Part shown: positions 14,522 to 16,283 of the stretch, in pieces
Position numbering within the stretch: the first letter of the stretch is position 1
Layout: each line of letters opens with the position of its first letter
Virus record (IMG/VR): IMGVR_UViG_3300023174_006034
Coordinates: 1 to 30,014 of that record
From: a virus
Length of the DNA stretch: 30,014 nucleotides
Strand: one strand, 5' to 3'
Program-made: the position numbers and the translations under genes
Notes under the pieces: model-generated
The model's database searches: none
What the model was told of the DNA's origin: nothing
Seen by the model: the letters and a program-made list of their open reading frames with translations, nothing else

Positions 14522-15031
14522 TTACAGGTTGCGATCTAGTGGATCTTCTGTAAGTAGTTGAGGTTTAGTTTTTTTAGGTTTGTCTTCAGAAGTATCTTTA
14601 ACTTCGATCTTTTTTGGCTTTTTATGCTCAGGAATAATACGCTCTAAAAATACTTTAAGCATACCATTCAACATTTCAGCATTTTGAACTTCGATTTGAT
14701 CGTCGAGTGCAAAAGTACGAGTGAAAGCCCGATTAGCAATCCCTTTAAATAGGAAATTTTCCTCAGCTTCATTTGACTGAACATTACCCTTAATCAACAT
14801 CTTACCATCAGCAAGTTCGATCTCGATATCTTGCTTGGCAAAACCAGCAACAGCTACTTCAACAACGTAAGTATTATCGCCTGTCTTTTTAATGTTGTAT
14901 GGGGGGTAGTTAGGAATGTTTTTTGTCATGTCGTCATGCATTTTAGCAAGACGGGTGAACTGATCATCAAAACCAACAAAGAATTTATCGTAATCCTTGA
15001 AACCTGGACCAAATACAGATAAATGTGTCAT
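14522..15031 (-). CDS. Small heat-shock protein Hsp20
   Basis: A 169-residue alpha-crystallin-type chaperone that holds unfolding proteins. The N-terminal arm (MTHLSVFGPGFKDYDKFFVG) is followed by the crystallin domain (about residues 45-140): YPPYNIKK, VVEVAVAGFAKQDIEIELADG, the FLFKGIANRAFTRTFALDD stretch, and the closing NGMLKVFLERIIPE, where the usual G-x-L motif lies. The C-terminal tail is Lys/Pro-rich. ATG 15031 is chosen over an upstream in-frame codon because GGGAG sits 7 bases before it. Hsp20 is common in marine T4-like phages. It shares a transcript with the upstream 73-residue gene and ends at a terminator. Confidence 0.93.
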   Translation of the reverse strand: MTHLSVFGPGFKDYDKFFVGFDDQFTRLAKMHDDMTKNIPNYPPYNIKKTGDNTYVVEVAVAGFAKQDIEIELADGKMLIKGNVQSNEAEENFLFKGIANRAFTRTFALDDQIEVQNAEMLNGMLKVFLERIIPEHKKPKKIEVKDTSEDKPKKTKPQLLTEDPLDRNL

Positions 15032-15032
15032 A

Positions 15033-15254
15033 TTAAGCTCCCTTTTTTGTAATACCAGTAATTGTATTTGCAAATGTTTGAGCTGTTAGTGTTATTACAT
15101 CACTAGCAGATTTAGCAATTTGCTTTGTAAAGACACGCTGTGCCTCAACAAAATCAACTAAAGGTTTTTTAAGGGAATCTTCCTGTACGGTTTGTTTGAG
15201 GAAGGTGATTTTGGCGTCTTGAATTGAATCGATAGCCATGTTTGCGTAAAACAT
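15033..15254 (-). CDS. Small phasin-like helical protein
   Basis: A 73-residue protein, MFYANMAIDSIQDAKITFLK onward, predicted to be almost entirely amphipathic helix. The middle FVEAQRVFTKQIAKSASDVI resembles the short helical repeats of phasins, proteins that coat polymer granules, but the match is only a pattern. AGGAG lies 7 bases before ATG 15254. It is the first gene behind the structured leader and late promoter, 1 base before hsp20. Similar small helical proteins near Hsp20 are seen in T4-like marine phages. Confidence 0.6.
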   Translation of the reverse strand: MFYANMAIDSIQDAKITFLKQTVQEDSLKKPLVDFVEAQRVFTKQIAKSASDVITLTAQTFANTITGITKKGA

Positions 15255-15286
15255 ATAGTTTCTCCTATTAAGCGAGTTTAAAATTT

Positions 15287-15378
15287 GATACCCCGAAGGC
15301 GTATCATTAATCCAGCTTACCGACTACTGGGGTGCCTTATCGTTGCACCGGCTTTAGACGCTCCTAAGGTAGAAGAGC
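15287..15378 (-). ncRNA. Structured 5' leader upstream of phasin-like/Hsp20 genes
   Basis: The 164-base gap 15255-15418 has no gene but contains three inverted repeats. One is a GATAC/GTATC hairpin capped by a UUCG tetraloop with a bulged G (15287-15305). The others are a GGTGC/GCACC hairpin (15331-15349) and a GCTC/GAGC pairing (15360-15378). It lies directly downstream of a late promoter and has higher GC than its surroundings. A candidate cis-acting RNA; no known riboswitch recognised. Confidence 0.4.
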
Positions 15379-15407
15379 CTGTAACGTTCCCATCCCGGGG
15401 ATATTAT

Positions 15408-15415
15408 TATTTATA
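15408..15415 (-). promoter_or_regulatory. T4-type late promoter before phasin-like/Hsp20 genes
   Basis: Exact TATAAATA on the minus strand. Transcription is expected to begin near 15402, giving a structured leader of about 148 bases before the 73-residue gene. Three bases of gap separate it from the regA stop. Confidence 0.65.
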
Positions 15416-15418
15416 CGA

Positions 15419-15853
15419 TTAATCGTTAGAATCTATTCTTTTTTTACTACCAATATTATACTTGGTTTGTAAATCCCATTCGTGCTTGTCTTTGTAAGCA
15501 ATTACTTTAATCTGCGATAGAGGTGCAAGATCAGTAAATTTAGTAGGATCTATAATTTTTACAAGTTCCCAATCAGATAAGAGCTTGGCAATTGTATTTC
15601 TACGTTCTAGATCGTTATCTGTTAAGTCGGTCTGCTTTCCATCTAAGGCAAAGAGTTCCTTGAAGTGAACGATATAGTATTTTCCTTGTTTATGTAAAAT
15701 ATGGCAAGATTGAAAAAGAATCTTATCTTTTCTTGAGGCAACACCAATTCTGGTTAACGTTTCTCTTACCTTAAGAAAATCATCTGGTTGAACAAGTAGG
15801 ACTTCTAGGGGCGCATATCCAGGTAAGTCAATCTTGAAGTACTCGTTTGACAT
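15419..15853 (-). CDS. regA: RegA translational repressor
   Basis: A 144-residue homologue of T4 RegA, which binds early mRNAs at ribosome sites and represses their translation. The segments PDDFLKVRETLTRIGVASRK, QSCHILHKQGKYYIVHFKE and DKHEWDLQTKYNIG match T4 RegA closely. ATG 15853 is preferred over an upstream GTG; AAGGTGG lies before it. The start overlaps the end of gp62 by 26 bases. The order regA-62-44-45 is as in T4. Confidence 0.94.
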   Translation of the reverse strand: MSNEYFKIDLPGYAPLEVLLVQPDDFLKVRETLTRIGVASRKDKILFQSCHILHKQGKYYIVHFKELFALDGKQTDLTDNDLERRNTIAKLLSDWELVKIIDPTKFTDLAPLSQIKVIAYKDKHEWDLQTKYNIGSKKRIDSND

Positions 15854-16283
15854 TATTAATTCCACCTTTTTCTAATTTTTGTTTTATCAGGTCAATCCAA
15901 GATTGATCTAGAAGGGGAAGTACTTGGCGCGCCTTTTCTGTGCTATAACCATAGTATTGTTTTATTACTTCTATCGATTCAATCTTTTCAGCTTTGATCC
16001 ACTTGTTATAGCGTTTCTTGGGCCTAATATTATTTATTAGAAAGTGGAACTGGAGTTTCTTATCGAGATGAGGTCTAGAATTCATTTCATTTGCCTGGAT
16101 TACGGTATCAGCGCCGTACGAAAGTCCTTTATTTACAATGTATGGAGCATATTGTTTTTCAGCCCAATCATCTACCATAAGATCATTCTTATTATAGGTA
16201 ATCGCATTAATAAATTCAAAAGGTGAGATAGCAGGTGCCTTATACGGTTCAATAACTATCTCTACTTTAGGTTCTCCAAACAT
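15828..16283 (-). CDS. 62: Clamp loader small subunit gp62
   Basis: A 151-residue subunit that joins four gp44 copies to load the gp45 clamp. It matches the marine T4-like gp62 pattern: FEFINAITYNKNDLMVDD, YIVNKGLSYGADTVIQANEM, HLDKKLQFHFLINNIRPKKRY, NKWIKAEK and YYGYSTEKARQVL. Shorter than T4 gp62 (187). The start overlaps the upstream stop (TGATG). Position between regA and gp44 agrees. Confidence 0.9.
   Translation of the reverse strand: MFGEPKVEIVIEPYKAPAISPFEFINAITYNKNDLMVDDWAEKQYAPYIVNKGLSYGADTVIQANEMNSRPHLDKKLQFHFLINNIRPKKRYNKWIKAEKIESIEVIKQYYGYSTEKARQVLPLLDQSWIDLIKQKLEKGGINNVKRVLQD

Follow-up and report, generated by a model that had tools for sequence, protein, structure and literature searches.

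A probable ROSE-like RNA thermometer in the leader of a phage hsp20 unit

The window, by which we mean the whole 30-kb stretch analysed (30,014 nucleotides of IMG/VR record IMGVR_UViG_3300023174_006034), belongs to a T4-like phage that encodes a UvsX-like RecA, DNA polymerase, clamp, clamp loader and RegA on the minus strand. A gap of 164 bases separates the regA frame (15419–15865) from a gene for 73 residues, which is followed by hsp20. The locus raises the question of what this gap does for the genes behind it, for which the original prediction offered a thermosensor, a leader peptide or a small RNA. The hsp20 product was best described by the NCBIfam IbpA model (E 1e-32; 112.6 bits, below the 212-bit cut-off of that model), and part of PMC3037559 counts hsp20 among the cyanophage core genes. 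The 73-residue product itself gave no match to Pfam Phasin_2, which was reached below its cut-off by two of seven relatives (best E 0.0073). Genes of 73–76 residues were found at this place in the window and in part of its relatives. The coordinates of all features are collected in Table 1.

Table 1. Positions of the genes, promoter-like motif and RNA structures in the window, with the basis of each assignment
Feature	Position	Strand	Basis or remark
73-residue gene	15033..15254	(-)	directly 3' of the hairpin element; weakly phasin-like
hsp20, IbpA-like small heat-shock protein, second gene of the unit	14522..15031	(-)	Pfam PF00011, E 3e-17
T4-type late promoter motif TATAAATA	15408..15415	(-)	sequence match
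Hairpin P1, CUC-loop-GAG, conserved loop CUACCUUAG	15361..15377	(-)	alignment A3: C-G/U-A double change, 3/20, one pair
Hairpin P3, GGUGC-loop-GCACC	15331..15349	(-)	double changes at 4/5 pairs in A3, 4/5 in A4
Hairpin P4, CCAG-loop-CUGG	15312..15330	(-)	covariation in A3 and A4
Pseudoknot strand CGG in P4 loop, pairs with CCG at 15349–15351	15320..15322	(-)	covariation in A3 and A4
Hairpin A, GAUAC[G]CC-UUCG-GGGUAUC, bulged G at 15300	15287..15305	(-)	covariation, RNAalifold, covariance model
Hairpin B, CUC[G]CU-UAAU-AGGAG, anti-SD strand UCGCU, bulged G at 15273, Shine-Dalgarno (SD) at 15262–15266	15262..15276	(-)	48/48 regA-found loci, covariation, RNAalifold, covariance model

The gap had been described as opening with an exact late promoter. 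The motif is present as claimed, but is not significant alone, with four copies in the window against 5.48 expected by chance. An A/T-rich promoter-like motif was found a few bases 5' of hairpin A in 45 of 52 relatives, using a permissive pattern with no control. Transcription presumably starts at about 15402, if the usual T4 spacing holds here. The inverted repeats that had been noticed in the leader exist as well, and among them the UUCG-capped hairpin, now hairpin A, lies 32 bases before the ATG at 15254 rather than 33.

Sequence comparison indicates that the leader end is a structured, conserved element of two hairpins, A and B, which occupy its last 44 bases (15262–15305, minus strand). 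Loci were sampled through RegA, without imposing the motif, to avoid selection by it. This yielded 80 IMG/VR loci, 53 with hsp20 and 27 without it in the available DNA; five were too short, leaving 48 usable. A hairpin B enclosing the SD and followed by a start codon was found in all 48; the distance from that codon to the aligned Hsp20 start was at most 60 bases in 44 of them and larger in four. The scans for both hairpins demanded the pairs and the bulged G, and no usable regA-found locus failed the scan for hairpin B. Its stem occurs as CUC/GAG (23 loci), GUC/GAC (11), GAC/GUC (8), CUU/GAG (4) and GAU/GUC (2), and the G is always bulged. A bulged G followed by C was likewise present in hairpin A in 48 of the 51 leaders, regA-found or annotated, that had sufficient DNA upstream; the standard form of hairpin A was absent from L125, L136 and L145. 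Its outer pairs are variable and number four to 11, and the linker to hairpin B spans three to 12 bases.

As a control, the hairpin B pattern was sought before 1521 SD-preceded open reading frames from all loci, spurious frames included, and was matched eight times. Two of these matches (L174 and L180) were hsp20 genes missed by the filter, four (L185, L210, L251 and L264) came from loci fetched by the motif, and those in L173 and L238 seem to be chance matches. The motif itself was the selection criterion from L166 on, and those loci therefore provide no evidence of the frequency of the element. The element precedes hsp20 directly or, in the window, the small gene before hsp20; 92 of 236 elements lie more than 60 bases upstream of the aligned Hsp20 start. 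In three annotated phages, the hsp20 start differs from the ATG behind the element: in P-HM2 (L294) it precedes the element, which thus falls inside the annotated gene, and in S-T4 (L291) and S-CAM7 (L295) it lies further downstream. These annotated starts look misplaced.

Covariation was assessed in alignment A2, comprising 27 of the 29 loci with a five-base hairpin B loop and a hairpin A tetraloop (L098 and L105 were omitted, and the window was not included). All 322 cells were paired (100%), and 67 were double-changed, compared with 21.1 ± 3.2 after shuffling (0 of 500 shuffles reached this value); the score collapsed once the pairing partners were slid. Neither the count of double-changed pairs (6) nor that of further pair types (16) exceeded the shuffles (372 and 112 of 500, respectively). 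RNAalifold predicted the identical structure from A2 unprompted. Taken by itself, the leader folds with no greater stability than its shuffled versions do (z −0.58; 54 of 200 shuffles equalled or exceeded it), so the case for leader structure rests on the relatives. In an Hsp20 tree of 68 rows, built from the regA set, annotated phages, the window and 19 hand-picked loci, the stem types of hairpin B require nine changes, some branches being long and uncertain. The original prediction had named covariation and conservation in related phages as its test, and the hairpins both covary and are conserved.

The covariance model R1, derived from A2 and hence without the window in training, matched the window at 15262–15305 with 48.2 bits (E 2e-12). 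Among 85 sources, it also matched 54 others at E up to 1, of which 22 were in the training set; the matches in L125 and L136 were weak (E 0.07 and 0.3), L135 gave one extra weak match, and L104 was not found. Of 53 matches compared, 50 end at the independently found SD, and three lie on contigs that end before hsp20. When applied to 12 whole records, R1 matched 11, in 10 cases once per genome, with a second weak match in G008 and none in G004. A blastn search with the leader against named phages returned 44 records; among the matches listed, the nine of 20 with E below 0.01 all cover approximately 15260–15309. The stretch matched in P-SSM2 lies directly 5' of hsp20, as does a weaker match (E 8) in S-BM1. 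Nine named phages were further fetched by Hsp20 similarity, and the element was found in eight (Syn33, S-CAM7, S-CRM01, P-SSM4, Bellamy, P-HM2, S-T4 and Pelagibacter phage Mosig), Vibrio phage PWH3a-P1 being the one in which it was not. The 54-kb Pelagibacter phage HTVC103P, whose record carries no Kyanoviridae placement, has a weaker relative of the element with an AUC/GAU stem. The same element precedes hsp20 in many other, presumably aquatic, phages. For bacterial counterparts, genome contigs were scanned with the Hsp20 of the window, which yielded 58 pattern matches, none of them a confirmed relative; an exact-pattern scan gave no match.

Part of PMC11342760 characterizes ROSE-like thermometers by a U(U/C)GCU strand that pairs imperfectly with the SD, with a predicted bulged G. 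The window has UCGCU at 15271–15275, paired imperfectly with the SD around one bulged G, in the 3'-proximal hairpin of a 5' UTR with A and B in tandem, upstream of a heat-shock gene that is here the second of its unit. Eight of 48 relatives, those with the GAC/GUC stem, have ACGCU, which is outside the U(U/C)GCU rule and counts against the thermometer reading. The closest parallel in layout is drawn with the ROSE-like thermometers of Pseudomonas ibpA, for which excerpts of PMC3669281 describe two hairpins, the first remaining closed and the second melting. Likenesses comprise the stable first hairpin, the 3'-proximal second hairpin that pairs the SD with U(U/C)GCU and places a G opposite the SD, the unpaired start codon, and the gene itself, ibpA, to which the phage Hsp20 is akin. 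In contrast to the Pseudomonas case as given in those excerpts, the element is phage-borne, hairpin A also carries a conserved bulged G, hairpin B has only 15 bases in the window, the GAC/GUC stem of other phages departs from the rule, and a small gene stands before hsp20 in the window. The same source reports that deletion of the G nearly abolished induction in P. aeruginosa ibpA, and that the corresponding deletion in P. putida reduced expression at 25 °C and increased the fold-induction, which was abolished only when a second change was added.

Classical ROSE elements (RF00435 and RF01832) share the motif and the small heat-shock gene context, and differ in having three to four hairpins, according to part of PMC3669281, instead of two. 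Neither Rfam ROSE (RF00435) nor ROSE_2 (RF01832) matched above its cut-off in five records including the window, and because the curated cut-off was not reached the phage element is not filed in these families. One sub-threshold ROSE_2 match was obtained on hairpin B of P-SSM2 (13.9 bits, cut-off 65, E 0.6), which proves little, as ROSE_2 gives below-cut-off matches in most of 14 control genomes. Other known Rfam RNAs were represented in the region by two weak matches to eukaryotic families (E up to 10). RNA thermometers in phage DNA have precedents of the fourU type, namely SPbeta blyA (in part of PMC10586365) and a Caudoviricetes sigma70 case (in part of PMC11342760), but these have a fourU motif and other genes, whereas the present element precedes a small heat-shock protein gene and its strand opposite the SD, CUCGCU, has no four-U. 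The cyanobacterial hsp17 thermometer serves a small heat-shock gene of possible hosts and differs, as outlined in part of PMC4477652, in its single hairpin with a 1x3 internal bulge and in the pairing of the start codon as well. The manA RNA (RF01745) is a leader RNA of cyanophages, and the genes it is reported to precede include ibpA chaperones (part of PMC2864571); it resembles the element in this neighbourhood and differs in sequence and structure, and it matched neither the window nor the leaders of nine relatives scanned. In P-SSM2 (L298), manA RNA sits at 142837–143034, after regA and one gene before hsp20, so the regA–hsp20 neighbourhood collects leader RNAs. An open-licence literature search found no phage hsp20 thermometer.

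On motif and layout, we infer that the leader end is probably a phage-borne ROSE-like RNA thermometer for hsp20 translation. It would constitute a variant of a known thermometer motif class in a new setting, with a sequence family of its own. Among the three guesses of the original prediction, the thermosensor is thus best supported, by structure and context, yet hairpin B, which holds the SD and would do the sensing, was absent from the three inverted repeats it had listed. At the usual temperature, hairpin B would keep ribosomes off, and warming would open it at its bulge, allowing translation of the small gene and hsp20. Hairpin A would stay folded and either help hairpin B to fold or shield the message, in line with what has been suggested for hairpin I of Pseudomonas ibpA. 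The amount of message would be set by the phage promoter and the translated share by temperature.

Folding predictions bear on this thermometer reading in two ways. The SD is unusually hidden in the phage leaders, with a median unpaired fraction of 0.07 at 20 °C in 52 leaders compared with 0.46 in 130 control genes. Warming is predicted to open the SD only slightly (median 0.06 at 5 °C and 0.17 at 42 °C in the same number of leaders), and hairpin B in isolation was predicted to be 94% formed at 37 °C, with its melting midpoint only near 60 °C. In the window leader, ViennaRNA predicted no heat-opening of hairpin B and a trend in the opposite direction: in the free fold, hairpin B increased between 4 °C (0) and 48 °C (about 0.55) while the unpaired SD fell from 0.60 to 0.30, and with the conserved hairpins enforced hairpin B was at 0.25–0.68. 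The predicted gain with temperature arises because other helices compete in the cold; these programs leave out pseudoknots and folding order. For now, the modelled folds count against the thermometer, and melting predictions were rejected as proof of it, being unfavourable in the window. Two competing helices in the window, AUAG..CUAU (over the SD) and P4 UAAGC/hairpin B GCUUA, are not conserved in many relatives and are therefore not treated as functional.

According to part of PMC10474464, IbpA of E. coli binds its own 5' UTR and thereby represses itself, for which Arg93, R97 and K98 are needed. The phage element might likewise be chiefly autoregulatory, with Hsp20 binding its own leader and repressing it until unfolded proteins draw the protein away; the two bulged-G hairpins would then be two candidate binding sites, which could act jointly with a thermometer. 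The bulged-G form of hairpin B is indeed repeated in hairpin A, and the equivalent of Arg93 is present in 243 of 250 phage proteins (four were unmatched by the pattern and three have other residues) and invariant across the 21 rows of alignment A5. At the place of Tyr34, a loose pattern found an aromatic residue in 230 of 250 proteins, counted without selection by the motif that contains it; such selection makes the figure of 231 of 231 uninformative. R97 has its equivalent in most phage Hsp20 proteins, but K98 is a lysine in only 8 of 174 matched ones, and Arg93 may be kept for other reasons, being described in part of PMC10474464 as a general feature of alpha- and gamma-proteobacterial IbpAs. 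We consider a chiefly autoregulatory element unlikely; thermometer and autoregulation may coexist. A broader combination, doubtful though conceivable, is a dual sensor of host protein health, in which the tandem bulged-G hairpins would be both thermometer and binding sites for the IbpA-like Hsp20, joined in the nearer relatives of the window to a pseudoknotted domain through which a third signal may be read. If true, heat and the folding state of the host would determine when the phage makes its chaperone.

A leader that stabilizes the message or sets translation constitutively, with hairpin A protecting the 5' end and hairpin B merely lowering translation, would agree with the start of hairpin A a few bases past the promoter-like motif in many relatives and with the lack of predicted heat-opening in the window. 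It is nonetheless quite improbable, as it leaves unexplained both the tie to hsp20 and the G bulged in the SD hairpin at 48 of 48 loci despite the swaps of stem pairs. That the repeats are DNA operators for a regulator is suggested by their position just behind the promoter-like motif, and is very improbable given that U-G pairs at set positions (one pair of hairpin A is U-G in 13 of 27) preserve RNA pairing and break the DNA palindrome, that the bulge is always on the same strand, and that hairpin B overlaps the SD. Control of the unit by a leader peptide is scarcely credible. The frame from the ATG at 15393 does read MGTLQALLP in the window, as had been claimed, but is not conserved: among 43 leaders with the same start (window and duplicates counted), 27 end after MGT, nine encode MGTLQALLP, three MGTLMALLP and four others, which contradicts that guess. 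A coding frame through the leader is also argued against by the linkers between hairpins, the lengths of which differ by single bases among relatives. A terminator or attenuator was rejected, many relatives having A/C-rich linkers and no U-run after hairpin A.

The thermometer, if confirmed, would link the temperature of the water directly to the development of phages within their Synechococcus, Prochlorococcus and SAR11 hosts, and it would provide a testable account of when hsp20 is used. The natural stem swaps around an unchanged bulged G represent a ready-made set for learning the role of that G in ROSE-like sensors.

Upstream of the two hairpins, bases 15312–15377 are, by comparative analysis, a second conserved RNA domain that comprises hairpins P1, P3 and P4 and a short pseudoknot; the hairpins of the original prediction other than hairpin A belong to it. 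Two alignments were built, A3 (20 rows) and A4 (16 rows, another subtype), which together hold 35 of 58 distinct upstream domains plus the window; a third subtype of 20 copies was left out. In A3, 97.5% of the cells were paired, with 33 double changes compared with 9.4 after shuffling, and in A4 the values were 99.5% and 29 compared with 7.6. The varying pair of the pseudoknot is U-A in 13, C-G in six and other in one of the 20 rows of A3, and A4 has one G-C against 12 U-A, with three gapped. None of the 58 copies comes from loci L082–L164, and the domain had no Rfam match. A model of it, R2, which had the window in training, matched clearly, and once each, at the hsp20 leaders of four among 13 other records, and three of those four had also served for training; its other matches were weak, and the weak one in G014 was not at hsp20. 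This domain may be a separate small RNA, the third of the original guesses. That it is a ligand or protein site is a guess, and if it binds something it would be a new kind of phage regulatory RNA.

Two minor observations concern this part of the leader. The conserved loop CUACCUUAGG (15363–15372 in the window) is the reverse complement of CCUAAGGUAG, which we take to be a highly conserved stretch of 23S rRNA; the match may be chance. The leaders of many relatives (L266, L282, L204, L047, L198 and L199) open, 5' of hairpin A, with a UCCC/GGGA hairpin, then UGGGA and an H-type pseudoknot whose two stems, as judged by eye, differ in sequence and stay complementary, and the window has only the first part of this arrangement (GGGAUGGGAACG).
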